From: Ceratodon purpureus | Taxonomy: Eukaryota > Streptophyta > Bryopsida > Pseudoditrichales > Ditrichaceae | NCBI GenBank assembly: GCA_014871385.1 | Contig: CM026431.1 | Location: 8,367,778-8,431,777, forward strand | Length of the DNA stretch: 64,000 bases | Reading direction: 5' to 3' | Shown: piece by piece, positions 25,525 to 63,041 of the stretch | How the letters are laid out: each line of letters opens with the position of its first letter | Position numbering within the stretch: position 1 is the stretch's first letter | Position numbers and translations under genes: made by a program | Notes under the pieces: model-generated | The model's database searches: none | The model's input: only the letters and a program-made list of their open reading frames with translations | What the model was told of the DNA's origin: nothing

Positions 25525-28505
25525 ATGGCCTTCATGGAAGGTGTCTCAGGTGCACTAGGAATTGGAATCCCGGTGTTATGGTTCCTGCTCTCTTTTCTGG
25601 CATCGATTCCCGCTAGCTGGCTCTGGCGATTCATGCCAAACGTTCAGGCACGCCACTTCTACGCATTTGTGAGCGGCGCTGTCCTCTCGCATTGCGCATT
25701 TGGCGCCTCGTCCAACCTCTACTTCATGCTGCCAATTCTTGTCAGCTATGCTACGATGGTGTTGAATAGGAGGAAGTGCGGGGTCATCTCTGCTGGATTC
25801 GCCTTTGGCTACCTCATATACTGGTAAGTGCTTGCACCCTTCCTAGTTATTGTCCCCTAATGGACAAGTACTATTGTCTGTTAATTACGGTTTTCAGTTT
25901 CTTCTTGCTCTGTATTTAGAGCCGTGCAGTTTTGAGCTCTGTTTTGTCCTTTTGCCATATCTCTCACACTGAGTAATGTATGGGATTGGTGTTATGCCCG
26001 TAAGCTTTTGTAGCACCAGTAGTAGACTCTGAAACTAGAGTTGAAGTCCAGAACTGCTTCAGAATTTAGTTCAATTCTATGCAGCAAGTGGTCCATGATG
26101 TTACAATCTGTTAGAATTTCACTCGAGAACTTGGACGTAGAAGCGGGTCACGTGGCTCCCAGGCTACCCAAGAAAATGACGATCGATCAAAATTTGGGGA
26201 TCTGAGGACCTCTCTCTAGAGAATAATGGTAGAGCTGTACTCTTTGGTTTACTTACCAGACAGGATTTCATCTTCCTTTATCCTTGAAGTTGTTTCATAA
26301 GGTTTCACGTCTAAGCTGGGGTGAATGATGAGTCAAGACTGTTTGAAATAATGTTCAAAAGTTTAGAGGACTTGGAAAGATTCAAGTAGTAAATACATTG
26401 CAGAAAAGTAGGAATTACATTTGAATCATCACGAAATAGGACGCCGCACACACGTACTGTACACAGCGACAATGATATAGTGAGTGTCTGATGGTGAGGA
26501 CTATTTGGTGGGTTGCAGTCATGTGACTTTCATGAGCGGTGATGCTTGGAAGAAGGGTGGCATTGATTCAACTGGTACGTCTTCACGGGAAACGAACGTA
26601 AATGCCAAGGTTTATGGAGTATGTTGAGTGAAATGTTTTTTTTTTTTTTTTTGAAGCAAGAAAGGAATTCGGCACGAAGCCAGGGGAGTGAAATGTTTTG
26701 TGAACATCGATAGTGAAAAGTTATTAAATTAACTGTTAGGGAACCCTGAATGCCTTGATCATCATTTAGTCTCAGTCTCTGACATCCATTTCCGTGTCGT
26801 TTCACAGGTTCAATGATGGTGCTGACGCTGAAGGTTACCTCGGCAGCTTTTAATTATCAAGATGGCTTGATAGAAGATGAAAACGAGCTCCGTGAAGCCC
26901 AGAAGAAGTACCGGCTCGACAAGCTTCCGTCGTTTATTGCATATCTTGGCTACTGCTTCAATTGTGGGACACATTTGGTTGGCCCAGTGTTTGAGCTCAG
27001 GGACTACATGGATTGGAGCGAGAACAAAGGGCTGTGGGATCCTGCCGCAGAAAAGCGACCCCCATCACCTTACGGGGAGGCACTTTATCAACTGTGAAAG
27101 GATTTGTTTGCATGGGCATTTATATGTACATGTCTGGAATATTTCCCCATAGCTTTTTAACTACGCCAGAATACCTTGAGTGGGGATATTGGCATCGTGT
27201 CTTGTACCAGTACCTGTGTGGTTTTAGTGCAAGATGGAAGTACTATTTCATTTGGGCCTTCTCTGAGGCTGCTGTAAAAATCTCTGGATTTGGTTTTAGT
27301 GGCGGGACCAAAGATGCACCTTCTGAAGAGCCCAAGGCAAAGTGGTCAAGATCTCATAATGTGGACATACGCAATGTGGAGCTAGCTACTAGTGCAGCAG
27401 AGATTCCAAAGTATTGGAACATTCACGTGAGCGTGTGGCTACGGCATTGTATCCTCGTTCATCCTTTTACAAATTTTTCTGATTGATTTAGGTCGAACGT
27501 AATCTTGCCTTTGTGATGTCAATATGCGTGATTGTTAAATTCGTTTCCAGCAACTAAGACTCCTATTTGAGTTCAATAATTCATTATTTTCTTAATGAGT
27601 TGAGAATTTAGATACTGACATTAATTGGAATAAAACGGTCATGCACGTTTGTTGCACTTCTTAACTTCGTAACTTACAGATGTTTACGAAAGACTGATAG
27701 TAAAAGGGAAGAGACCTGGATTCCGCCAGCTTCTTGCAACACAAGTTGTGAGCGCCGTTTGGCATGTAAGTCATTTTTCGTGTTTAAATTTGTTCTTTAG
27801 ATTTGATAGAAAGCATGGGAAGTCAGAGATTGATAAGATTCTCAACACTCAAATACTCATGTAATTCCTTTTTGTGTCAAGTTATGAGATACAGAGTCTA
27901 AGACTAACCTTGATGTCCGGGATGTAGGGATTGTACACTGGTTACTTCCTCTTCTTTGTCAACAGCGCACTAATGATTGCAGGCGCTAGAGGTAAACTTC
28001 TAATTTTATTTGTTGATGTCTTTACATTGAACATAAAGGTCTTTTGTTAGTCATTTATGCTGATGGTGTAGCACTAATAATGTTGACACTTAATCTGTGC
28101 AGTGGTATACAAATGACAACAAGCAATACCCAAGAATAATCTCTTGGCAGTAAATGTGGGCTCTCTGTTTGGGTTCTTCTACAGTGCGTTTGTCCTCAAC
28201 ACTACTGTCATGGGTTTCCTGGTTTGTGACTCAAACCTGCTGTATTCAACAAACCCTCTAAACATCTTTGCGCTGGTAGGATCTAGAGGAATTGATATCA
28301 GCAATTTGCTCCGGTAGTCTTTTCATTTTATAATTGAACACTGAGCAGTTTTCTGTTCTTATTGCAGGTATTATACTTTAATGACACTATAGCTGTATAT
28401 AAAACTGTATATTTCACTGGCACATTGTTACCAGTAGTGATTCTGGTGTTCGGAAAATTTGTTAAACCTCCCAAGGCTGGACAAAAAGTGAAGAAGGAAG
28501 CATAA
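25525..28505 (+). pseudogene. LPLAT1: LPLAT/LPCAT-type MBOAT lysophospholipid acyltransferase, disrupted
   Basis: Seven exons: 25525-25823, 26519-26574, 26808-27448, 27680-27765, 27928-27991, 28103-28221, 28368-28505. They align along plant LPLAT1/LPCAT, an ER membrane enzyme that acylates lysophospholipids. Landmarks are CHVTFMSGDAWKKGGIDSTG, SMMVLTLKVTSAAFNYQDG, LREAQKKYRL, YCFNCGTHLVGPVFELRDY, PSPYG, FSARWKYYFIWAFSEAAVKI, WNIHVSVWLRH, LLATQVVSAVWHG (catalytic His) and a Lys-rich C-terminus (KKEA). There are two defects. In exon 3 the frame breaks after PSPYG in a G-run (about 27075-27085), so that one extra G would restore it. In exon 6 a TGA stands at 28114-28116 where the family has Trp (R/K-W-Q-Q-A). 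All splice sites and the rest of the reading frame look intact, so the damage is recent or partly due to sequence error. Confidence 0.8.
26626..26699 (-). mobile_element. Short poly(A)-tailed insertion with 14-bp target duplication in MBOAT intron 2
   Basis: GAGTGAAATGTTTT occurs at 26626-26639 and again at 26686-26699. Between them lie a T-run (A-tail on the minus strand) and about 33 bases containing GAATTCGGCACGAAG. A tail plus long direct repeats is the usual mark of LINE-assisted retroposition of an RNA. The core also matches 13 bases of the common cDNA-library EcoRI adaptor, so an artefact must be considered. Confidence 0.55.
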
Positions 28506-35857: not shown

Positions 35858-37624
35858 ATGGGTCGAGCCGGATCGTTTCTAGGTGCGAGGATGGTTGACA
35901 CGAAGATGAGCAATGTGCGGGCGCAGTACAGAGCGCATGGGTTGAAGTCGGAGGTCGTGGAGGTGGATGATGGAGAGACCGTGATCAGGTGCTGGGTGCC
36001 GTGGCAGCAGCCAGAGAGTGGGGTGTGGTCGGCCGGCGCTTCGGACAAGCCTGTGGTTTTGTTTCTTCATGACTTTGTGGCGGGTGGGACGATCAACTGG
36101 GAGAATCAGGTCGGCGCCTTCACGAAGGATTTCAATGTTTATGTGCCTGACTTGGTGTTCTTCGGTGGCTCAACGTCGAGCAAGAAGGAGAGGACGGAGG
36201 CTTTTCAAGCGCATTGCATGGTTAAGATGCTCCACGCCCTCGAGGTTTACAATGAGGTAAGCATTGAGGTGTTTGCAATGGTTGGCAGAACCTTCTTGTA
36301 AGCATTGAGATGTTTTTTGATATTTTAGTATTTCTGTTCCTTGCCTGTATGATTTACAGTGAAAATATTTCTCTGTTATAGGTCACGGTGGTGGGGACTG
36401 GCTATGGCGGGTTGGTGGCGTTCTGGATGGCGCATCTGTACCCAAAGCTTGTTGAGAAAGTCGTCTTCGTTGCTTCAGCGACGCACATGACATCCTCATC
36501 TCAGAAACCATTGCTCGCAGAGTTTGATTATGACCATATTTCTGAGTTGCTGTTGCCTACCACAGTGCAAGGATTGAAGAACTTGGCATCTGTTGCTACT
36601 TATAAGCGCGTTTACAGGCTGCTGAAGTTCGTGTGCAAAGATGTGTTGGAGGTGAGCATCGTCCGCTTTAAATTTAATTTAGTGGTTAGATTAAGTTGTT
36701 CATATTCCTGGCTCGTAGAAATACAGACCGAAGAGTTTTCTGACATTGAACGGTATTGATATTGGTAGGTATTCTTCGATGAGCAACGGCATGAGAAGGT
36801 TGAGTTGCTATTGAACATGGTCTGCGGTGCAAAAGGAGCAGATCCTCTCCCACAGTTAATGCAGGTTGGAAAATAAAAATAACTTCATTTCCCTCCGCTG
36901 TTCATTTTAGCTTCAGAAGAACATTCTCACATCTATATGGCTTCAATTTTCTAGTCATGCTGTTGCATCGAAATATTCTGATTCGGTGATGACTCTACGA
37001 ATCATACTCTAAATAAGCACAGCCGTCATATGTAGCGTTTATTTCTGTTTGACGAATTTATCAGCTAATGTGCGGCCTTGTTTCATTTTCAGGATAAGAG
37101 TTTGATAATATGGGGTGAAAACGATCAAATCACAAGTCTCGAATTGGCCCTCAAGCTAAAACAGTGAGTGAACTTTCGCTACATGGGTCACTTAAAGACT
37201 GTAGGAGCATTGAAGTTATCTTCCCACACACAATATAATAATTTTAATGATGAAACAGTCTCAAATTTAGTCGTTAGGTTGCAAAATCCAGAATATTTAC
37301 CACCCAGTTCTAGGTACCCCACCCCCACATATACTGATTGAACAGTAATGGTGCTTGAATGTTACTCTTGAAGTTAGTTCGAAGTACTTCAAGTGTTGCT
37401 TCCGAAGCGATCGGACGAAACTGACCTTTCCAGGATTGTGGATAGTCAGCTGTACTAATGTGATCACTGTTGGATGGAACAGGCACTTGAGCACTGATGC
37501 TTCGACAGACCTAGTGGTGCTGAACAAGTGTGGTCACTTCCCCCACATTGAGAATCCTACAGCTTTCAATCGTATCCTCAGCAATTTTTTGAAGGGCTCC
37601 AACGACAAACCACTTCGGAGATAG
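35858..37624 (+). CDS. Alpha/beta-hydrolase-fold protein with Ser-to-Gly nucleophile change, five exons
   Basis: Exons 35858-36256, 36382-36651, 36769-36864, 37093-37163 and 37483-37624 join in frame (GT-AG) to about 325 residues. The N-terminal part has KPVVLFLHDFVAGG (the oxyanion-loop region, usually HGF), NWENQVGAFTKDFNVYVPDL and VFFGGSTSS, the signature of a plant alpha/beta hydrolase group. The nucleophile elbow, normally GTSYGG, reads GTGYGG (residue ~140, codon GGC at 36400-36402). The acid (WGENDQI, D~266) and histidine (CGHFPHIE, H~297) are kept. Frame, splice sites and length are intact, so the gene is not an obvious pseudogene. By analogy with other fold members lacking the serine, it may bind a ligand or partner rather than hydrolyse. 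Start chosen at the first true ATG (ACAATGG). Two inverted copies of one TIR element flank it. Confidence 0.85.
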
Positions 37625-48343: not shown

Positions 48344-49885
48344 ATGGCGAATTCCCGTGTTGGAGCTCTAGTGTCGGTGGTGGTCCTGGTCTGGGCAATG
48401 AGCTCTCTCAACATGGCTGAGGCTAATTACAACCTGTCAGCCGACTTTTATGCCAAGAGCTGCCCCCAGTACGAGCAGATCATTTACAGCTATGTAAACA
48501 AGCTGTACAACTCCCCGAAAAATAACACCGTCATATCGATGATCCGATGGGCTTTTCACGATTTCGTCAATGTAAGACAAGTTACCCCTTTAACACGGTC
48601 CCTCTCTCGAATCACTCCCAGCCGTCCTACTATCAATCAATGTAGCGGTATACATCTTGAATATGTTCAATCAGTTTTATTTGTTCCCTTGTTTCATAAA
48701 TCATGATCGTGATCTGATTGACTGAATTATCGAACTCTTTGCAGGGCGCCGACGCATCGTTCCTTCTGCGTTCCGACAACTTCCCGAGTAACACATCGGA
48801 GAAGGACTCCATCTCACAAGTAGGGATGCGGAACAGCAAGTACGTCAATGACATCAAAGTTGTAGTGGACTCATACTGCCCCGGAGTGATCTCTTGTGCT
48901 GACACCCTGGCTGTGGCCGGAGCTGCTGCTGTCCAAATTGTGAGTGCTATATTCAACATCCACCAACCCTTGCCACATATTAGCAACAGCAAGCTCTTCT
49001 GTGATCGATATTTTACTTCGTGATCAGAAACCATACTGGCCTACCAATTATCAATAATCTAATGACCGCTTTTAGTCAGTAGCACTCTTAGACTGGTCCG
49101 AGATTATCGTACTGAGTCTGACTCGTGCAATGATGACATCGATGCAGATGGGAGGACCAACTATCCCTCTCAAGGTCGGCCGAAGAGACAGCCGCATCAG
49201 CTTGAAGTCGTCGGCGGACTTGATTCCCAGGTCCAACGCCACCGTGGATCAGTTGTTGGCATTTTTCACGCCTCTTGGACTCACCACTGCTGAGGCCGTT
49301 GCTATGATGGGTGAGCAGTGCTATTCAATACCATCAGATCATCACTCTAGCTATGGTCCAAAAACCTGTTAATGCCTTTCATTCTTCGCAGAGTAAGTTT
49401 CCTACGGCCATAGCTGATGAATAAACTTGTTGGTTGGATTGGCAGGAGGACACTCAGTAGGAAGAGCCCACTGTGTGAGCTTCTGGAAACGATTATACCC
49501 GACAGCCGACCCACACCTAACAGCCACATTCGCCGCGAAGCTCTACGATCGGTGCCCGAAGATCCAGCCTACGCCCGGAAATCCCAACCCACTCAACGTG
49601 ACCAACCCCATCCACTACACCTACATCCGCAACGACCCCTACTCGCCCCTGACGATGGACAACCACTACTACCAGGAGCTTCTCAAGAGGCACGGCGTCA
49701 TGACGGTGGACGACAACCTCATCTGGGACAACAGGACTCTTCCCTACGTCCAGCTCTACGCCCAGGACGCCAATGTCTGGAAGAAGACGTTTATGGGAGC
49801 ATACCAGAAGCTGAGCGAGTTCAAGGTTCTCACCGGCACGCAGGGAGAGATCCGCAAGAAGTGCACCCTTCTCAACAAAATCTAA
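48344..49885 (+). CDS. Class III secretory peroxidase lacking the C44-C49 disulfide, four exons
   Basis: Exons 48344-48571, 48745-48939, 49148-49310 and 49446-49885 give about 341 residues. An N-terminal signal peptide (VGALVSVVVLVWAMSSL, cleavage near AEA) sends it to the wall or apoplast, where such enzymes oxidise phenolics with H2O2. The distal site is IRWAFHDFVNGADAS: Arg68, His72 and Asp73 are present, but the usual FHDC..xxxCDAS has lost both cysteines and is one residue shorter. The proximal haem ligand is GGHSVGRAHC (His198). The other six conserved cysteines are present (AKSCPQ, SYCPGVISCAD, RAHC, DRCPKIQ, RKKCTL). It is closest to the atypical group around Arabidopsis PRX21/PRX42 (GMRN, GGPTIPLKVGRRDSR, TGTQGEIRKKC). 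Last-exon codons are markedly GC-rich at third positions. The gene looks intact. Confidence 0.88.
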
Positions 49886-51747
49886 ACATCGTCGTTTATG
49901 TTGGCCTTGATCCAGTTACCCGAGTGCTCTGCTGATGAAGGAGATGATCAACTCCAGCCTCCATCCTTTTGAGGCTAGAGAGTTCAACGAAGAGGAGTTA
50001 AGTTAATACTATGTTCTATCTGGGGACTAAAAAATGAACCATTTGGTAGATCGAAAAATACAAATCAAATAGGCCTGAGTAGATAAGTTAGTAAATAAAA
50101 GTCGAAGCATGAATTGATTGGAGTCATTACACTCACTGTGCAGCTAGATCTAGATCTTGAAATTATGAATCAAGTTTTGGTAATTTTGAGGAGGCTGCAG
50201 GGTAACTAGCAGTTGTGCAGTGGATTTGACCATCAGTTTGTGCACACGGCAGTAAGTTAAGCATGTTTCTGTAATGTTGGCGGACTAGAGGGAGACGCCG
50301 TAGTGAGATGATGCTGCAGAAGCTAGTGTAGCAGGGCTGCAATTACCTGTTGGAATTATGGGTTGAAGCCTAAATTATGTTGTAATACTCTGTTTCAGAG
50401 TATATTTATTCCTATCAATTGGAAGGGAAGTTCGTATACTTCAGTTTTATTGGTTCAATTCCTCGTCTCATACTGCATCAGCAAAGTTGCAAACTTGTGA
50501 TGTTCTTTAGCATTTGAGCTGAAGATTGGCTGAGTAGTCCAGATTGGGATTCCTGCTTGGTGTTGCTACTGGGTGAGATTTGTATACAAGATTCTTTCTA
50601 GCTTCAAGGATACATAACAGCTGCGTTTTTGAATTGAATATTTTTTGACGAATTTGTGAGTGTTCCTAATGATGGGATTTGCAAGCAACATCTGGTAGAG
50701 CAGTATTTGCGAACGTAGAGCAGTGATTGTGGCGGTTTGCCTGGGATTGTTTCTAGCTCGGCACTTAATTTCAGATTGAACCCTCAGGGTTGTGATTGCT
50801 TGTGCATCGGTTTTGTGTTTGTAGCACTAAATTTACTTTGCGTGAAAAACATGCTTCTTTAGTTCTTTAGGATTGGTGTTCGGCCTCTCTCTCTCCTTCT
50901 ATTTTATAACAGAAGGCATTAGGTGACTACATTCAAACTCCGTGGGTAGTTACATGTAATAGTGGCGATAACATTGGATTTCGGGTGCCACTGGTCCGAT
51001 CGAGGAGCAAAAGTTCTTCACTTACTCAGCACGGAAGGGACACCGCATCGGCCTCCTCAACAAACCGCAACATAGCAAACTCACAGACAAGCAAGCGAAG
51101 CTCAACCTTTCCGAGTACGAATCAGCCCAAGCCATCAAGCTCCAACTGAACCCCACCAAGCCGGCCAAACTCTAGCACTTTTCGTGGCAATTTAATTCTA
51201 GTGGTTAGCCTAGGCCCAGGTCATGGGTTTCTCTGCAACCTGCACCTGTTGCGATCGACGAGACACTTGAGCACCTCTTCTCCGACTGCAGTAACATACA
51301 TTTGCAAGGAGAATGTGGAACCGTACTGTGTGCTCCAGGGCTTCCCAGTCTCGGAGGGAGAAGGTGATTAGTGTTCCTCTTGGCATCCCTTTGTCCTGAA
51401 CTTGGCCTCTTAGTGCGCTGGGTATAGATTTATTTTCAGCCTTAAACCCATTACCATGGTACGACAGCAGGTTTAATTCTAAAAATAGAGAACTTAAAAT
51501 CAGAAAATTATGAAGATCAAAAAACAAAAACGGATTAGATTATTTTTAGTAATGTAATATTATTTTTAAACCGGGTGTCCGGGTATATAAGGTGGGGATA
51601 GACTCTGCACCATTTGAAACCCTAATCCTGTGAAGTCACCCCACCTCTCTCGGAGCTCTCAACGAATCAGAGCAGGAGTTTAAGATCTTTTGACTCCGAA
51701 GTTAGAAAGGAGGAGGTAACCTCAGGAGTGAGTGGGGACTACCAGTT
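49886..51747. other. Peroxidase 3' flank and spacer
   Basis: Probable 3' untranslated region, then spacer. Contains one short coding-like block (50985-51174, listed separately). A stretch at about 51640-51800 resembles 5' leader sequence (CCCCACCTCTCTCGGAG) but no gene follows before the foldback element. Confidence 0.35.
50985..51174 (+). pseudogene. Orphan coding-like fragment
   Basis: One frame reads GPIEEQKFFTYSARKGHRIG, then a Lys/Gln/Leu-rich end closing in TAG at 51172-51174. Third positions are GC-rich, unlike the flanks and like the last peroxidase exon. There is no ATG in frame and no recognised family. It may be a terminal exon fragment of a duplicated gene. Confidence 0.35.
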
Positions 51748-53906
51748 TAACCCCTAAAGGTTCTGGAAATCCAAAATGGCTCTCGGCTGTTTCAGGCAGC
51801 CTAAATGAAGGGGTTAAAAGTAATATTTCTGCCTAAGAATTTTACTAGATGCTCCCTATACCGCAAGGTGTATGTGGTAAAAAATTTAAAGCCAAATTTC
51901 ACTTTTAAAACCTTCATCTAGAAATTTTAGGTTTCAATTCCAAAATGGGCAGTTTAAAATTAGGTTTTTTTAGAATTTTTTTTTGGAAATGTGTTCATAA
52001 CCAAATCACTACTCAAAATCCAAAGTGGCCTGTGTCAAAAAGTTTACCAATTTTACAAGGGCAGCCTCCAAAAATTACAAAAACAACCTTCACAGTTTTT
52101 GGTCATTTATCAACTTTTTCTTTCAAAATTTGTCAAAATTTGAGATTTAGGAATAATTTTTCAAATTTTGATTTTTCGATAATTCAAAAACTCATAAACG
52201 CAAGTTTAACCGTTCATTTTTTTTAAAAACCAAAATATTAGAACTTTATTTAAGTTTTACCATATTATGGGTTTTGTACCTCTTTCTAGAAAATAATTTG
52301 CATGAAGGCCAAAAAAGCGTATAGAGACTCTAAAATTTTGCATGGAGGTGCCCAACTTAATTACCTACATGGAAAAAAATATGAGCAAAATGTTTGGGGT
52401 AAAAATCATCAAGTTTCTCTTAGCACCATTTAGAGTATGCCTTTCACGCAAAGGCCAAAAAGAAAAAACAGTAAATTTTGAATGTTATAATCTCACAAAT
52501 GGTAAAGATCCAACCGTTGAAATTTGGCATGGTATTAGTGCAGGTAGTTAGGTTCAAGATCTTACGCTTGGATGTATTAGAAAATTAAAAAAATAAGAAT
52601 CATACTCCAACTTCTACAAGGCTGTCAAAAATCACAGTTTTTGGTTTTGGAGGTCCAAAATCGGCTTGAACCTTTAGGGGTTGAGTCATTTGAGGTCATT
52701 TTTAGTAAAAAAATTACAGAAAATGAAAATTAAAAAAATTGATTTTTGAAAGACAAATTTTTTATTCATTTTTTAAAATATTTGTGAAGTAGGTGGACAA
52801 ACTTGCTATGGAGCGCAGTAGTATGTTTTAAGTGTGTCAACTTGCTTGGTAAGATACAATTCATGTTGGAATAACAAATTGTAGGACAATCTTTAAAATT
52901 GAAAAAATTGTAGAAATTGTCACAAAGCAATAGGGTTATTTGTAAAGTCCCTCAAAACCTAAGTTTTTGACCTATAACCCCTACATTTCCTTGTGTTTTT
53001 GAGAGCTTGAATCCTCAAAACTGCGATTTTTTACCACTATGTCCTCCCGAGGATATGAAATAAAAATTTTAACTTTTTTTGGAATTTCAACCATAAGATC
53101 TTGTACTTAACCCTATTTGGAAGAACTATTTCAAATTTCAACCGTTGGATGTTTTTCATTAGTGAGATCATAGTGTTCAAAGTTTCAGCAGATATTTTTT
53201 TGGGCCTTAACCGAGAGGCATGGTGCAAATGGGCCAAAGAGAGACTTGATGATTATTACTTCAAACATTTTGGTCACATTTTTTTCCATGTAGCTAACTA
53301 GGTTAGGTATGCTCTTGCAAAATTTTAGGGACTCAAAACGCTTTTTAGACCTTCATGCAAATTATTTTCTACAAGAAGGTATAAAATTGACAAGATAGTA
53401 TAACATGCATTACAAAAACAATTTGTGAGCTAAAGAAAAAGTGAACGGTGAGTAGGTACCTTTATAAATTCGTGATTTTTGAAAAATTAACTTTCGAAAA
53501 ATTCAAACATCTCGAATTTTGACAAATTTTCAAACGAAAAATTAAAAAATTACTAAAAACTTTGAAGCTTGTCTTTGTAAGTTTTGGAGGCTGCCCTTGT
53601 AAAATTGGTAAACTTTTTAACTTAGGTCACTATGGAATTTGAGTAGTGATTTGGTTATGAATGTATTTCAATTTTTGTTTTTTTAAAAGACCTAATTTTA
53701 GACTGCCCGTTTTGGACTTGAAACCTAAAATTTCTAGATGATGGTTCTAAAATTGGAATTTGGCTTCAAAATTTTTACTACATAGACCTTACCGCAAAGG
53801 GAGCACCCACTGAAAATCTTGAAAAATAATATTACTTTTAACCTCCCCATCTAGGCTGCCCAAAATTGCAAAAACCCATTTTGGGTTTTAAGGATAGTTA
53901 GGGGAT
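51748..53906. mobile_element. Large foldback (long inverted repeat) element
   Basis: The outer ~500 bases at each side are imperfect inverted copies. ACCCCTAAAGG...CAAAATGG...GGCAGCCTAAATG...GGTTAAAAGTAATATT on the left mirrors AATATTACTTTTAACC...CTAGGCTGCCC...CCATTTTGGG...TAGGGG on the right. TCTAGAAATTTTAGGTTTCA pairs with TGAAACCTAAAATTTCTAGA. CCAATTTTACAAGGGCAGCC pairs with GGCTGCCCTTGTAAAATTGG. TTGCATGGAGGTGCCC and the CATGGAAAAAAAT segment also have counterparts. The similarity fades towards the centre near 52.8 kb. No transposase is visible. A two-armed foldback element of about 2.16 kb is the simplest reading. Confidence 0.75.
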
Positions 53907-54885
53907 AATTTGGAAAAGGACAGGATCGTCGTGATCTCATTGTAGACCTAGAATAGAACACTAGATAGATTGAAATTTTTATTCATAAAAATTTAGAAGG
54001 ATGAAGAAGAATTGGGTAGTGGAGTGGGATCGTGAGGACAAGGAGAAATGGTACCAGCTTTGGATGCCTTTACAAATAACTCTAATGTTTGAAAAAAATT
54101 CATCTTCATTTAGTATTCTAGGGAAGTTTTTGTGAAGGTAGTATTTATTTACAAATAAAGGAGGTTAATTACTACCCTCAATGAGAACCTTCGGCCCCTT
54201 AATTTGGATTCTATTTCTCTTTTTGTTCTATTAATTTGACAATTACCATGTTCTTCCAAAAAAAAAAAAAAAAACTGTGGAAATAACATGAAATTGTGTT
54301 AAGATTGTATTATAAGTCTAAAATTATTGAATGAATATAATACAATGAATCATTATTTTTAATTTGACTATTTAAGGAGGTGTATGAGAATATGATAATT
54401 TGATATATTTCTACAAATAATTAAAGAAAAATTGTTGTAAATTCTAGACCAGGAATGCTATCTTGTGAGCGGTGAGCAGTGAGCAGTGAGCGGCGAGCGC
54501 TAAATTTCAATAATTTTGAAAAAAAAACCATTAAAATGTGCTCTAAATCAAGAAGGGAGCCCTATGACCGTGGTTTTTTTAATAGTTTTTTTCAAAGATA
54601 ATACACAAATATTATCATTAGATATGACGCAAATACCCTATTTCTATGCAGGTCAATTTAATTAAGTTTTATAATTATTAGGTTAGAATTGAATCCTCAA
54701 AATTAAAAGTCATTGGTGAAACCAATTTTTTGCGACACTTATACTCTAAACAAAGCCCAATGTCAAGAGTTTTAGATTAGTACATGAAGAGTCATATTTC
54801 AAGAGTATCAAAATAAGAATCAAGTATAAGGAACTGAAATAGATTAATGTATAAAATGTATCACAATTCTGAATAACATGATAAA
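53907..54885. other. AT-rich spacer with a 7-mer repeat
   Basis: No gene seen. At 54466-54500 GTGAGCG/GTGAGCA is repeated about five times head to tail. An A-run lies near 54258-54274. It is the 3' flank of the minus-strand gene ending at 54886. Confidence 0.4.
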
Positions 54886-57800
54886 TCAAGTACAAGAACT
54901 GTCATCACTAGAAACCTCAATGTAGTCATGCTCGGAGTCATTGTCATTACTAGTAGACTCAATGCTCCCGTGCTCAGAATCACTGTCGTGACATAGTACC
55001 ACATTATCTACTTCTGCAAATAACTCAAAATACTGCTCTGCGTCACGATTAGGTCCACGATGCTTTGGAGAAGAAGGTGGTGAAGGAGCCGCCGCCATTG
55101 CGTGTGCAAGGTTCTCTACGTGGTAAGGAAGCTCCAAAGGACGGATTGGGCTTCTAATCTTGCTAAGATACCTTGACACAATTCCTTGGGACTTCAACGC
55201 TTTCTGCCCCCGTCTGAAGCAAGAGAAATAAGATATACTTAGAAAATTCTATTTCAATAATACAAAGTAGCTGTAAACACCAGAAACTGATAGTATAGAC
55301 TTACTTACAAGAGCTCTTGGGGGCTGTCTTCTTCTCAGGTTCATCGTCATCTTCCAAGGGGCGCTTATTCTTTGGAGGAGGTAAAGTGGCCTGCTCAGAT
55401 TGGACTTCATCGGGTTGTGGAATGAGCGGCAGTAGTACCTCCTTGTACAAGACATTGTCGTCTTCAAAAGCGATGACATGTCGATTGATGCTTTTGCTAG
55501 CACGAATGGATGCACCTGAAAATCGAATAAAGAATTAGAAAGCGGAGAAAAATGGGAAACAAAAAAAACATCTAATTCTAAGTCAGAGAATATAGAACTT
55601 ACCTGTGGATGCATTGAGGTCCATGACAATATCATTCTCGACGGTGCAAAGGTCCACAAGAGCCTCCAGGAAATTGACAGACTTCTCACGAGCTCCTCTA
55701 AACGGGTTGCGGTTCACTGAATCAACAGTAAGAGAGTCCACAGTGATAAAGTTGTTGACATGACCATCGGTTGACAACGTGATGCCCTTAGCAGCTTGCT
55801 CTGGCCTGTCATGGAAAACAAAAGTGGATGCTGCTCGACCTTCCATAGGGCTTTCTTTCCAGACAAAACACTTGACCATAAAGCACTTGTGAGTCTGAGA
55901 AGGTTTATCTGGTTTAGTCAATGGAAGCCCATTGATTGCAAACCACCTCCTCTCCTCTTCAAAGCCAGCCCAATCTGCCCAAGATAGGAGCTCGTTCGAA
56001 ATGAACTTAGAATCGGGATAGAAGACAATGACCGCTCCATTGTCCTGAAGGAACTGAGAAGCAAAATCCATAAAGTGCTGAATCCAGTCTGACTCGAACT
56101 TCCCTTCCACGCCAGCTACAGGTCTTTTGGGGTGGACATTCCACAGAGGAATTTCACCAGAGAGGCTAAGGCCCGGGACCGGTAAGTCTTCTGGCACATC
56201 AAATATGATGAGATCTACAACCGTATCATCCACATCTCCTTGCTTGTGACGAATCTTGTTCCCTTGGTGAGCCTTAATCCACTTCAAGATGTTTGACCAA
56301 ATCAGAGGCTCGCCTCCGCGTGTGATGTCAGTGAACAACTCCAAAATTCCTATAATGTTGTCGTTGATAACCTCCACTCCACACTGTTTGTCTTCCACTT
56401 GGGTGCAGGGAATGGTGTAAACAGTTTGCGAAGGAATGGGTGGAACTGAAAGATGTACCTGAGACATCAATGGAGTGAAGGTCGTCGGCATGCTACTGCC
56501 AGATGGAGAAATTCTAGGAAGAGAAAGAAGCTTCTCTGGACCCTCTTTTGCCACCAACTTAGCCAACTCCTTATTGCGGGCCAAGACCTCCTTCTTTTTA
56601 TTGAGCTCCTCCTCCTTCTCCTTCTTTTTGTCTTCCTTGGCCTTCAATCGCGCCTCCAATCTTGTCCTCTTCGCGGCCTCCTTCTCCCTTTGTTTCTCCG
56701 AAAGTTCATCTTCACCACCAACATCCAAAGTAGGGGAATCGGGGAGGACAACGTGCTCAGACACATTCTGTTTCATCTGTTGCTCACAATTTGCTTTCAG
56801 ATTCCTTTCCTCCCCTGGACATCCGTCGTTCACCTTCATCTCAAGATACCATGGACACTGTAATAAATGAGGCCTTCCAAACTGTTTCCTTTGGTACTCA
56901 GTGAAAATACAGTCACTACTGGAAACATCCACCCATTTATTGAAGCGGATAGGAATGTCTTTTCTTTCAATCGCACCCTTGACTACGAGCTCTCTCCAAA
57001 AGTACCTTAGAATTGCCCGCTTCATGGCACTTTCAGCTCCTGCTTGATCAAGGAATGGCAACTTCTTTGTGAACGTTCCAGCCTTAGGGAAGAAATCTTT
57101 AAAGGCCTTTCCCCACAACGTGATTGAATGAGAAGCAATCCAATCTCCGATATCGTCAATCGGTACGTTTAGGCCCTTCGTTTGAATTACAAGACCATCC
57201 TCTTCGACTATATCATTGAATCGGGCGACTGCTTCATCCTCCAACTGTCATGTAAGATAGATACAAAATACTCAATTTCATTGAAATCATAAGTTGACTC
57301 AAGCTCATTAAAAATGACAAGGATTCCAAATGAATGATTAGAATTAGACTTACCCCTGCCCAGAAGGCAGCTTGATCAATCCAGACACGAAGGTGATTGT
57401 CTGAGGCAGGCTTGGGTGGGAAATTATATTCCTGCCGACTCAATTTGCTCATGTTCCACCACCTCAACCACTTCTCTTTGTGTTTAGCAGACACTTTGGC
57501 AGTAGCAATTAGCTGTAGTTTCTCAGGAGTCATTTCGAACTTCGACTGATAAATATCAAAATGGCGTGAAATCTGAAAAATAATGGTCACATTAGTAATA
57601 GTTTCTTTAAGTGAACCAATAACATAATAGAACATCTACACCAAAGTTGATCAAATAAAATAGAATGAATCAAATAAAATGAGAAAAATGAAGCAGTCCC
57701 GCCCCCTTTCTATTCCAAAACCCTTCTTGAGAGAGAGCAACTTATTGTGAAATTAATAAAAGGTGCCCATAAAGAAAACCATTCACAAAGGAAAATAGCA

Positions 57801-60800
57801 AACAGTTGAACCAAGGGCCCCAAATGGGGCCCTTCACTAAAATACAAAAATTGGAAATTCAGAAAAAATAAAAAAAACTAAGCAGCCCCACCCTCCCTCT
57901 CGGATCCGAGACCCTCCTTGAGGGAGGAGAGCATCTGCAATATTTTCAAAATGGTTTGTTTTTTAAAAATGCCAAATCGGAAAATTACGAAAAAACAAAA
58001 AAAAAAAATAGCCCCACCCTCCCTCTCGGATCCGAGACCCTCCTTGAGGGAGGAGAGCATCTGCAGTATTTTCAAAATGGTTTGTTTTTTAAAAATGCCA
58101 AATCGGAAAATTACGAAAAAACAAAAAAAAAAAATAGCCCCACCCTCCCTCTCGGATCCGAGACCCTCCTTGAGGGAGGAGAGCATGTGCAGTATTTTCA
58201 AATTGGTTTGTTTTTTAAAAATGCCAAATCGGAAAATTACGGAAAAACAAAAAAAAAAAATAGCCCCACCCTCCCTCTCGGATCCGAGACCCTCCTTGAG
58301 GGAGGAGAGCATCTGCAATATTTCCAAAATGGTTTGTTTTTTAAAAATGCCAAATCGGAAAATTACGAAAAAACAAAAAATTACGAAAAAACAAAAAAAA
58401 AAAATTGCCCCACCCTCCCTCTCGGATCCGAGACCCTCCTTGAGGGAGGAGAGCATCTGCAATATTTCCAAAATGGTTTGTTTTTTAAAAATGCCAAATC
58501 GGAAAATTACGAAAAAACAAAAGAAAAAATAGCCCCACCCTCCCTCTCGGATCCGAGACCCTCCTTGAGGGAGGAGAGCATCTGCAGTATTTTCAAAATG
58601 GTTTGTTTTTTAAAAATGCCAAATCGGAAAATTACGAAAAAACAAAAAAAAAAAATAGCCCCACCCTCCCTCTCGGATCCGAGACCCTCCTTGAGGGAGG
58701 AGAGCATGTGCAGTATTTTCAAATTGGTTTGTTTTTTAAAAATGCCAAATCGGAAAATTACGGAAAAACAAAAAAAAAAAATAGCCCCACCCTCCCTCTC
58801 GGATCCGAGACCCTCCTTGAGGGAGGAGAGCATGTGCAGTATTTTCAAATTGGTTTGTTTTTTAAAAATGCCAAATCGGAAAATTACGGAAAAACAAAAG
58901 AAAAAAATAGCCCCACCCTCCCTCTCGGATCCGAGACCCTCCTTGAGGGAGGAGAGCATCTGCAATATTTCCAAAATGGTTTGTTTCTGTAAAATATCCA
59001 ATCGAAAAATTACGAAAAAAACAGAGAAAAAAATTACCCCCACCCTCCCTCTCGGATCCGAGACCCTCCTTGAGGGAGGAGAGAATCTTCAATATTTCCA
59101 AAACGGTTCCTTATTTCAAAAAACTAAATCGGAAAATTAACATGGATTTGGACGGGAGGCTGCAGGAAATACAAAATGTTTTAAAAAGTCACTACAGTAA
59201 CCACTAAAAATCAGCAAGTTGGGAGTTAAATGTTCACAAGGTTAACTTGCAGATAACATACAGTTCACTAGTTGTTTACTCAACGTTAACTTTGTGTCAA
59301 GTATGACTGAAGTCAACCTTATGATGTAGATGACATAGTGACTTACAAAAGTCATACACTCAGAAAGTGTAGGAGTTTACCTCTCTAAGAAAATTTGGGC
59401 CATTTGCAGGATCAGCAATTGCAAGTAAGCGCGTCAGACGTGTCAACAACTGTGTCTTTTTCACCTCAACTGCCTCTGCTACAACCTCTTCTAGTTCGGT
59501 AGGGCTTCCCGTTTTGTCGTTGTCTGTACCGGAAATGAGACTGTCCCTGTAGCTCCTTATTGCCTCTTCTTGCGCAGCAGATATTTCACGCTGAATTCAT
59601 AAATACAAGATTTAGAAATTGAATTTACAAAATCAAATGATAAACATTAATACATTGAAATATAGTTAATGACGAATACCTCATAGAGAAATTTCACAAA
59701 CGCATCCTGTGTCAAATGGTACCACTTCTTCCCCTTGAGCTTCTTGTATTCTATCATGCTAGCTTGGAGATCGTCGTCATTAACAAGGCCTTTGAGCTGA
59801 TCAAAGTCCAGCAAGCCTAATTGCTGGACACGCTTAAGCTCGTGTGTCAAGTGTGTTGCAACATGGTCAACTTGATTCTTCCTATATTCATCACAAGTTT
59901 AGATCAATATTTTTAGTCTGTGTGAAGAAAACCCATCCTTGGGTCAAAACAGTATAGATAAAAAATATGAAATAGATAACTTACTTGTTCCAGTCCGTCA
60001 TGGCATGCAACAACATGTTGCGGTTCTGAGGAGTGACGTTTATGATCATGGAACGAACTGAAACGTGGAAGGCAGGATCATCGCCATGAAGAGAATTGAT
60101 AATGTCCATCCATGCAAGATGGCGATGATTACCATCCCAAACGTAGAAGAAACGGTTTGAGAACTTCTCTAGTCTAGAATCCTCCTTCAATCGTGATTCA
60201 AATAGCTCATCTTGCGCACGCCACAGAGATGACCACCTTCCACGATGCTCCTCTGTAACAACTGACTCTTCCATTGAGTAGCTGTTCAGTGACAAATAAA
60301 AGGAGGCTGAAGCTCGCCTGTAACCATGAGCAAATTCGGCCTTCAACTTTGCAATATCAGTCTTCAAAGGATCCCTGACGTCCGTCATAGGGATCATACG
60401 ACAAAGTGGCACGTCAATTTCAAGGCCTGGATAGTCCATGGCCTGTTGGATGGCTGCGTGGCTATTTCCCCTCACTGCTTGGCGGAGCTTTTCCTCCATT
60501 GCTGCCAAACCTCCTTCTTCCTGCTCAAAAGATGTGGTGCCAATATAGTCGAGCTCTTCTGATACCATCATCGATGAAGCCATCTCAACGACAATCTGTC
60601 ATTACATAAATTAGTAAATTAATGCCAAGTATCTATGACGGAAAATTAGACAAGTAATGAGGTAATAAGAATCTTGATACTATCTAAGAATGTTAATGAC
60701 AATGCAACAAGATACCATCCACAATGACGGGATTTGTTTAGGAATAATATAAAACAACTGTGAAAACTAAATAAATATGTTAATGATTCTAATTTACCGG

Positions 60801-63041
60801 CTAACAGTTGCACAGGCTTCTCAAAAAATATTCAGTATGCTTTAATATCCCCAACTTATCAAGGATTAGCCTATTGTATTGTATAGACAAAACAAAGACG
60901 GAGTGGTTTATGATAAAAACTAGCCTGTGGTGAAGATCTCCCAACCACCGAGGCTAGCAGTGGCTGCTCCAATGAAGCAGCTCCGGGCAAGGATTGCAAA
61001 ACCTGCACAGGGCCCACCCAAATCTCAAGGTCGTTAATATCAAGGTTGGAATAGTTTCAAAATGTCTGTGAGAATTTTCTTACCAGATGCGTATGCTGTC
61101 TGTTGTGGCCCATGGCGAAATGCTAGACCTCCACTGAGTTAGACATGCATATCAACTCATATAAATCATCCACACCCGCTCCCAACTCAAGTGCCAAACA
61201 ACACTGCCACTGTCTAACAAACAAAGAGTAATCCATGAAGCTACCATGAACCGAATGCCCTTGAATCGAATCTAAACTCCAGGAGGACAATACCGAAAGA
61301 TCGAATTCGAGGAGCACCGGAGGCAGTACATTATCTTGGGAAGTGAAGCAGTCGTCAAGCTAACACTTCACTCTCGACACTCAAACTGAGTCTGCTAATA
61401 ACTGAGAGGATGTTCATTCTACCGATGATGACCTCTCTGGAAAAATGTCTTGGGTCGAACATGACCCTGAAGCATGTTGAACTATCTGTGTCGTGGCTCG
61501 GTAATGGTGATCAGAATGATCAGGAATCGTATCGTGATATTCAACTAACATGGAGCTTGCAAAATAATTCAGCACAAGTCTATCAATGATCACCTTAACA
61601 CACCATCAGCCGTTCACCGAACCCAAAGAGAATGCTCATTCACAAGAATCAAAACCCAAATATACAGCCACCTTCTTAACACAAAACCTGACTTGAAAAC
61701 CACGCTTGCAGCTATCACCGAGTACCAGCGGGCACAAGCAAGCCTCGCAGCAAGGTGAGAAACTCACTTGACACCGAATCAAAATCTTTTTAAACAAATA
61801 TGTGCACAAGCTACAATCTCGGCAGGAAACCACAGTCGACCTCTCAGCTTCGGTGCACAGCCCCCCGGGCTCACAAAATTCGCGAGAGCTTCGACATCAG
61901 TGACTACGACAAGGACGAGATCCGTCTTGCGTTCGAGCTTTTCGACACCCGCAAAGTTGGGAGGCTTTGCTACCGAGACCTGAAGGTGAAGACCTGAAGG
62001 TGAATATGTCATTACCGAGGTGCACTCATCTAAACCGAGAGTAAATGCGAACGATAAATACCTCGGGATACGGTGCAAGCTGTGGGCGCGGAGAGTGGAG
62101 GAGATGTGACGCTGCAAAAGGAGACGACCCAGAATCCTGCAAGAGTAAACCAAGCACATGTCAACCGACTGCAACACAATCATACTCAACCGGTCTCAAG
62201 CACAATCGAAAAAGCGAGAGCAGGAGAAGGCTTCTGGCAAGGTGAGTAACTCACGAGACGCCGAGGAGAGAGGAGATTATCAGCAACGGCTGCATCTGAT
62301 ATACTATCCAGGTTAGCCCGAACTTCGAGTATGTCTGGGTGTTCAATCTCCTCGTGCCCCGTCCTTCTGCTTTGATCTGTGGGTCCGACTTCAACTTGAT
62401 CTGGGAGTTCAATCTCCTCGCGGCCTTTGGTTTCGGTCTGTGGCGTGGCTCGGCATTGGAGTTGACGAGGCAATTCTATCTCGTCGTGTCCTTTGCTTTT
62501 GATCTGACCTGGAATCAGATTCTAGATGGCCGGGCAAGTCCATAAGACATCTGGAGTTAATCAAGGGTGATCACTTGCAGTGTCACGGCGAGCTAATTAT
62601 CTAGGTATTCTAATTTTTCCATGTCATCTAGAACCTAGTTCTGACCCGTTGTTGGTAACCAATGCATATGATTTAACTAATATCAAGGAGAAAAATTATA
62701 GCCCGTAAAAAATCTGATTTGACAATGAATAGAAATTAGTGGATAATGAACACATAGTTATATCAATATTCCAGGAGTCCTACTTATATAAACATTACAT
62801 CATGGAGAAAACGTACCTTTGTGAGCGCCTCCAAACTCCTAACCTTCAAACCCTGTGAGTCATCTGAACTCCCGTCAACATCGACAATTTCGCACAATGT
62901 CTTCTTGTGACGTCGTTCTCGTTGGGCCTTAAGTTGCTTGGGGTTTGTGAAATGACTACTTCTTCTTCTACCCTTCTCCTTACTTCTACATGTCCTAGGC
63001 GCTCTCGGAACTACTAAACTTGATCTCTCTTCTTGACTCAT
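54886..63041 (-). CDS. ParB-like/N4-N6 methyltransferase-like fusion protein, ~11 exons
   Basis: Minus-strand exons (high to low): 63041-62817, 62503-62255, 61002-60925 (GC donor, tentative), 60595-59985, 59881-59680, 59590-59381, 57572-57354, 57244-55603, 55515-55305, 55213-54886. All phases agree, giving about 1,324 residues, or 1,215 without the second and third exons. Order: basic N-terminus (KGRRRSSHF, likely nuclear). Three degenerate units DEIELP/EEIELP/EEIEHP. A ParB-like domain (DVPLCRMIPMTDVRDPL, LKAEFAHGY, then YVWDGNHRHLAWMDI at ~336-350). A helical linker. A Lys/Glu coiled coil. A beta-class methyltransferase-like fold with DLIIFDVPEDLPV (motif IV, DPPY expected, ~947), DNGAVIVFYPDSKF, GAREKSVNFLEAL and DIVMDLNASTGASIRASKSI plus NRHVIAFEDD (motif X-I, ~1140). 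An acidic Ser/Asp tail. DVPE for DPPY suggests the catalytic activity is lost or changed. Introns hold a 126-bp tandem array and an antisense EF-hand fragment. Confidence 0.72.
57690..57760. repeat. Diverged outlying copy of the 126-bp repeat
   Basis: GCAGTCCCGCCCCCTTTC...AAACCCTTCTTGAGAGAGAGCA follows the same plan as the array unit (GCCCCACCCTCCC...GACCCTCCTTGAGGGAGGAG) but is strongly diverged, as expected of an ancestral or edge copy. Confidence 0.5.
57884..59150. repeat. Ten-copy 126-bp tandem array inside an intron
   Basis: Unit starts (GCCCCACCCTCCC) fall at about 57885, 58011, 58137, 58263, 58407, 58532, 58658, 58784, 58910 and 59036. The spacing is 126 bases except for one 144 (an extra 18-base piece) and one 125. 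Every unit carries the perfect palindrome CTCGGATCCGAG and a CCTCC-TTGAG-GGAGG hairpin, then an A/T-rich half ending in an A-run. Since 126 is divisible by three, all frames stay open and produce long spurious ORFs on both strands. The array lies in the intron between 59381 and 57572 of the ParB/methyltransferase-like gene. Confidence 0.95.
61084..61113 (-). other. Possible alternative first exon of the ParB/methyltransferase-like gene
   Basis: ATG at 61113 opens MGHNRQHTHL and ends at a good donor (CTG|GTAAGA) in phase 0, matching the exon at 61002-60925. A transcript starting here would lack the basic N-terminus and the EIELP repeats. Confidence 0.3.
61866..61997 (+). pseudogene. EF-hand (centrin-like) gene fragment, antisense in an intron
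   Basis: The plus frame reads KIRESFDISDYDKDEIRLAF then ELFDTRKVGRLCYRDLKV. This is the helix-loop-helix of a centrin-type EF-hand (EIR.AF.LFD....G.....ELKV), though the loop (DTRKVGRLCYRD) lacks several Ca-binding acids. The frame stops four codons after LKV. GACCTGAAGGTGAA is directly repeated there, at what would be a natural exon end (AAG|GTGAA). There is no start codon and no further EF-hands. It looks like one captured exon. It lies on the strand opposite to the host gene. Confidence 0.55.

Follow-up and report, generated by a model that had tools for sequence, protein, structure and literature searches.

We analysed a 64,000-nt stretch of the genome of the moss Ceratodon purpureus (contig CM026431.1, positions 8,367,778 to 8,431,777; hereafter the window), which holds a minus-strand gene joining a ParB/Srx-like domain to a DNA methyltransferase (MTase)-like domain inside a large DNA transposon (Table 1). 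Exon borders were placed on the minus strand by splice-site inspection, using GT-AG introns and continuous phase. The full splice model has eight exons and encodes 1,215 amino acids (aa); its supported part comprises the seven coding exons at 54886-60595, running from M80 of the model in exon 2 to the stop at 54886 and encoding 1,136 aa. The original prediction, made from the letters of the window, had counted about eleven exons. The peptides that it quoted were recovered from minus-strand exons: exon 59985-60595 holds DVPLCRMIPMTDVRDPL and YVWDGNHRHLAW, and exon 55603-57244 holds DLIIFDVPEDLPV and DIVMDLNASTG. The proposed fusion held, with the two blocks joined in one gene by GT-AG borders and continuous phase and the same structure found in a homologous gene on another contig (L112).

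The L112 protein, read from its exon-2 ATG, is equal in length to the window protein from M80, and four exon lengths (202, 210, 219 and 1642 nt) and their phases are the same in both genes, at a protein identity of 47.3% (521/1101 aligned residues). An annotated C. purpureus protein (P0018), which matches exon 2 at 64%, also spans the exon 2-3 junction as modelled. The basic N-terminus of the original prediction did not find such support, as its exon (62817-63041) has an open frame and a donor site only, and tblastn of the model against L112, where 551 nt are present 5' of the exon-2 ATG, gave no match before aa 100. Upstream of exon 2, on the plus strand (61870-61997), an EF-hand/centrin-like peptide was seen by eye, with no Pfam match at 1e-3; this is perhaps a captured gene fragment.

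The borders of the transposon were defined by comparison of its copies. On the left, the 3' homology of eight other near-identical copies stops 1,136-1,140 nt beyond the exon-6 frame, and the right border was read from the window copy and a copy on contig C5 (98.9% over 10.9 kb). The terminal inverted ends, CAGGAATGCTATCTTGTGAGCGG... and, inverted, CAGCGATGCTATCTTGTGAGCGG..., are 87.5% identical over 72 columns; inverted-repeat searches confined to the window missed them, since it does not include the right end. The terminal pattern recurs without mismatch 141 times in the moss's own genome, and its reversed form, used as a control, 0 times. The left end was found within 18 of 20 loci (L114-L133), and at the other two one each was found about 225-242 nt outside. 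Perfect 10-bp target-site duplications flank three of the four elements with both ends read (window, C2 and C8 copies). Searches of the own genome (362 Mb), where the counts are lower bounds and refer to exons rather than whole elements, gave at least 78 scored matches to exon 6 and at least 150 to exon 2. The exon-6 matches comprise 10 at 96-100% identity (window copy included), 4 at 75-76% and 64 at 61-66%, and 57 of the 78 are free of stops. Near-identical copies of the element are spread over six contigs. Alignments of the 126-bp array differ between transposon copies, which suggests that its length may vary among them. On C5, two inverted near-identical copies (C5:19686699 and C5:19701957) lie about 15 kb apart and have 9 bp of flanking DNA in common crosswise, the right flank of the second (c5b) matching the flank to the left of the other; this suggests inversion or recombination between the two.

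Opposite the ParB-MTase-like gene, and extending beyond the window, stand two frames of 705 and 465 aa, which recur in a subfamily copy on C8 at 77% and 87%. Mutator-like elements have target-site duplications of 9-11 bp, long inverted ends and a transposase with a SWIM finger. The duplications and long inverted ends described above are of this kind, and a SWIM-like CxC..CxH motif was read by eye in the 465-aa frame, with no Pfam match to it. From these features the frames probably encode a Mutator-like transposase. The gene travels with a DNA transposon, which encodes the probable transposase on the other strand, and is very probably a transposon accessory (cargo) gene.

Table 1. Features of the locus (window positions; NLS, nuclear localization signal)
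Feature	Position	Strand	Remark
DNA transposon, 13,691 bp	54450 to 4,140 bp past window end (64000)		C11:8422227-8435917
10-bp target-site duplication AATTCTAGAC, left copy	54440..54449		right copy just past element, outside window
Left terminal inverted repeat	54450..54525	+	GTGAGC-type repeats
Exon 8	54886..55213	-	acidic tail and stop
Exon 7	55305..55515	-	motif II region (VIAFEDD); basic NLS-like stretch also in L112
Exon 6	55603..57244	-	helical region, coiled coil, MTase-like motifs IV to X and I
Motif I position	55603..55621	-	DLNASTG in place of D-x-F-x-G-x-G; last codon intron-split
Motif IV position	56189..56200	-	DVPE in place of (D/N/S)PP(Y/F/W)
Exon 5	57354..57572	-	length matched in L112
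Tandem array, period 126 bp, ~10 copies	57848..59139		intron between exons 4 and 5
Exon 4	59381..59590	-	length matched in L112
Exon 3	59680..59881	-	length matched in L112
Exon 2	59985..60595	-	ParB/Srx-like domain; probable start codon M80
DGNHRH, ParB Box II-like GxxR motif	60119..60136	-	exon 2
Tentative 5' exon, basic peptide	62817..63041	-	open frame and donor site only, no homology support
Probable transposase frame, 705 aa	63864 to 65978 (window-extended)	+	opposite ParB-MTase gene
Second frame, 465 aa	66161-67555 (window-extended)	+	SWIM-like CxC..CxH near end
MBOAT gene fragment	26995-27483	+	Pfam
Alpha/beta-hydrolase gene fragment	36382-36756	+	Pfam, below its cut-off
Peroxidase gene fragment	49421-49882	+	Pfam

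The C-terminal part of the protein has a well-supported predicted fold, that of the beta-class N4/N6 methyltransferases. Foldseek on the domain model matched an MTase fold at E 4.7e-7, and profile-profile comparison with phage MTases (hhalign) gave E about 1e-5, with 0 of 100 shuffles as good. Matches to the PF01555 profile below threshold were also obtained for seven of the 12 members (best E 8.3e-4; 16.2 bits for P0003, under the gathering value of 26.7). Concurrently with the VIA of the motif II region, these agree with a Rossmann MTase fold in the permuted order IV...X-I-II, as originally read from the sequence. The catalytic motifs themselves are replaced, a point absent from the original prediction. 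In all 13 sequences compared, motif IV is D-(V/I)-(P/H)-E instead of the canonical (D/N/S)PP(Y/F/W), with the first D kept and E at the aromatic position in 13/13. Motif I reads D-(L/I)-(T/N/S)-(A/T)-(S/G/T)-T-(G/C/S), its last residue straddling an intron in unspliced frames, in place of F-x-G-x-G; the F is absent from all 13 and the first G is present in only 2/13. The motif X lysine is present in 13/13, and the motif II E in the four of 13 sequences that are long enough to reach it. Because motif IV is replaced throughout, we do not file the domain as a canonical active member, and judged by its motifs, methylation is rather likely to be non-canonical or absent.

Exon 2 carries a GxxR motif of the Box II type, as defined in an extract of PMC12704722, with the G in 15 and the R in 14 of 16 sequences. 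The ParB/Srx assignment is probable, mainly because of this motif, the predicted order of elements and the architecture, and the support for a ParB/Srx fold of this domain is only suggestive.

In the protein collection, exon 6 as query found 11 relatives (weakest E 9.5e-13) and exon 2 found 16 (weakest E 3.3e-10); with these homologues and the 78 and 150 own-genome matches the gene is more than a chance product. A search with the whole model gave no match at E 0.001, supposedly because coiled-coil words swamped it, as the exon-wise searches did work. In tblastn against phages with E up to 10, exon 6 had no match and exon 2 matched only three records, at E 0.7 or more; PHROGs matched neither exon, viral scans with the family found no relative, and PDB sequence searches (exon 6, alignments A2 and A3) had no ParB or DNA-methyltransferase chain among the matches listed, which look like chance and coiled-coil hits. 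The bacterial/archaeal scan was without a match for exon 2, and for exon 6 gave only L112 and a second contig, L113, both filed under a Synechococcales cyanobacterium metagenome-assembled genome (AVDCRST_MAG81). We read both as eukaryotic contamination, because they contain GT-AG introns (6 and 5, respectively). L113 spans part of exon 3 to part of exon 8, is 90.7% identical to L112 in DNA and has one stop in the tail, close to the contig end.

Exon 6 is under purifying selection. Between subfamilies, the ratio of nonsynonymous to synonymous substitution rates (dN/dS) was 0.151 (dS 1.05, L114 vs L124), 0.119 (dS 2.31, L114 vs L128) and 0.151 (dS 1.79, L124 vs L128), the larger dS values being near saturation, and six closer pairs with few changes gave 0.17-0.44. 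L112 and L113 had a dN/dS of 0.128 over 881 codons, lowest in exons 3-5 (0.026), at 0.099 over the MTase domain and highest in the tail (0.70). The element seems to need the ParB-MTase-like protein.

Taken together, we read the locus as a large Mutator-like moss transposon with an accessory gene, with the mechanism below as a tendency, and give this reading a probability of roughly 0.7. The protein would enter the nucleus, and is probably nuclear to judge from a basic KRPLE..DEPE..TAPK stretch common to the window and L112. There, the ParB/Srx-like domain would act as a nucleotide-gated DNA clamp and the MTase-like domain would bind DNA, perhaps with a remnant S-adenosylmethionine (SAM) pocket, rather than carry out ordinary methylation. 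Binding is suggested because a presumed ParB-type clamp is coupled to an MTase fold that has lost its aromatic catalytic residue, and the replacements of this residue and of the F-x-G-x-G SAM loop are conserved. Candidate binding sites are the GTGAGC end repeats or the 126-bp intron array, and the protein would aid the element by countering silencing or by assisting transposition. That its accessory role works through binding of the element's own DNA is a tentative proposal, which we hold at somewhat below even odds. A more specific version, in which a pseudo-methyltransferase with a ParB-type nucleotide-gated clamp loads onto repeats of the element itself and protects the element from silencing or builds a transposition complex, is speculative and rather doubtful; so, to the same degree, is its wider form, in which a eukaryotic transposon has reused a ParB partition-like system and DVPE with PDS(K/R)FI forms a non-methylating site. 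VANC proteins are anti-silencing proteins of the VANDAL Mutator-like elements of Arabidopsis and are thought to bind element repeats. They may be the nearest functional analogy for an accessory protein of a Mutator-like element, the likeness being one of function only.

Several observations weigh against parts of this reading. The kept Box II motif makes the ParB half of the original prediction plausible, but Pfam had no ParB match among 14 members, and the AlphaFold model of the domain has a predicted local distance difference test score (pLDDT) of only 43.6; structure searches with this model had no ParB chain among the matches listed. In hhalign against fusion-type ParBs the domain reached E 0.13, and 17 of 100 shuffles did at least as well. 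Against phage ParBs picked on their DGHHR motif it reached E 0.005 with 0 of 100 shuffles as good, at a score of 22.9, but a nonsense control, in which the ParB-like alignment was reversed and set against phage MTases, scored 24.2. The PF01555 profile was not listed for the window's own exon 6 alone. Pfam also found no transposase match in the opposite-strand frames, and 'Mutator-like' therefore rests on the duplication length, the long inverted ends and the motif read by eye. The c5b copy lacks a target duplication of its own, and 21 of the 78 exon-6 matches contain stops. Furthermore, a replaced DPPY would not strictly exclude catalysis.

This last point bears on whether the gene could instead encode an active N4C or N6A methylase with which the transposon marks itself, an idea put forward for algal ParB-MTase genes in an extract of PMC12477816. 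The MTase fold and the retained residues of motifs IV, X and II speak for such an enzyme, but the aromatic residue of motif IV and the F of motif I are gone from every sequence, and according to an extract of PMC8885841, replacing the S and Y of SPPY in the bdelloid enzyme N4CMT abolishes addition of N4-methylcytosine (4mC). We therefore consider an active methylase unlikely.

Nor does the gene look like a passenger that the transposon captured and that has no role there. Short frames between the gene and the transposase imply that the element may pick up sequence, but the exon-6 frame has been kept across subfamilies at dS 1.0 to 2.3 (dN/dS 0.12-0.15) and the pair of gene and transposase is retained in a second subfamily, which leaves this explanation only a slim chance. 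The original prediction had favoured a domesticated, intron-rich nuclear host gene; the repeated copies would then be by-products of a gene derived from a ParB-MTase. Its many introns, the purifying selection and the conserved structure of the L112 gene would suit this, but a gene on which the element depends would also be under selection across element lineages. Since the window copy is part of a 13,691-bp element with defined borders, inverted ends and a 10-bp duplication, and near-identical copies occur on six contigs, we regard it as accessory to a DNA transposon present in many copies and not as a host gene, and domestication as very improbable. That candidate was dropped after the own-genome search showed many copies.

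Among ten neighbouring frames three matched Pfam, as fragments of peroxidase, MBOAT and alpha/beta-hydrolase genes, in keeping with the nuclear genome of a plant. At 51742-53913, close to the left border of the transposon, lies a large imperfect palindrome with arm pairs of 234, 208, 169 and 61 nt (77-85%), by its form a putative foldback element or one resembling a miniature inverted-repeat transposable element.

The architecture, thought undescribed in the original prediction, has a reported precedent. An extract of PMC12477816 (citing Iyer et al. 2011 and Petroll et al. 2025) describes a ParB-MTase accessory gene in the brown-algal Ectocarpus element Sola1-1_Ec32 and mentions green and red algal ones. 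As far as that description goes, ParB-like and N4/N6 MTase parts are likewise in one protein (1,104 aa there, 1,136 aa here), encoded opposite the transposase of a giant DNA transposon; what differs, compared by description only, is the moss host, DVPE at motif IV, and the 10-bp duplications and SWIM-like motif, which suggest a Mutator-like element and not Sola1. Fusions of ParB and PF01555 are also described for phages in an extract of PMC12704722, which gives sulfiredoxin as the commonest eukaryotic form. Among 93 phage ParB-type open reading frames, the ParB part is followed by a PP[YFW] motif in 36. Such phage and prophage fusions have the same order, ParB then MTase, and the MTase profile match given above. 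Four of the phage proteins, chosen by such motifs, differ in having DPPY and D.F.GSG and in being single short frames, and the ParB parts give no significant match to the moss domain. Bdelloid N4CMT, as presented in the extract of PMC8885841, is also an amino-MTase that originated in bacteria and is encoded in the nucleus of a eukaryote, but has kept SPPY, is active and has a chromodomain instead of a ParB-like domain; the 4mC methyltransferase of Marchantia, from the same extract, is of bacterial origin too, but without extra domains. Several literature searches turned up no description of a moss gene of this kind among their top-ranked results.

The gene is itself of a known kind; new here are its occurrence in a moss, a transposase that apparently belongs to a different family, and the replacement (DPPY to DVPE) of catalytic motifs that are nevertheless conserved. 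The algal transposon ParB-MTase proteins have been noted without a known function. That the same architecture occurs in a moss with an apparently different transposase, at high copy number and with some copies nearly identical, points to recruitment on several occasions or to an association of long standing, and the replacement of catalytic motifs under purifying selection indicates that DNA methylation may not be the point of this protein. As the moss can be grown in culture, its role is open to direct test.
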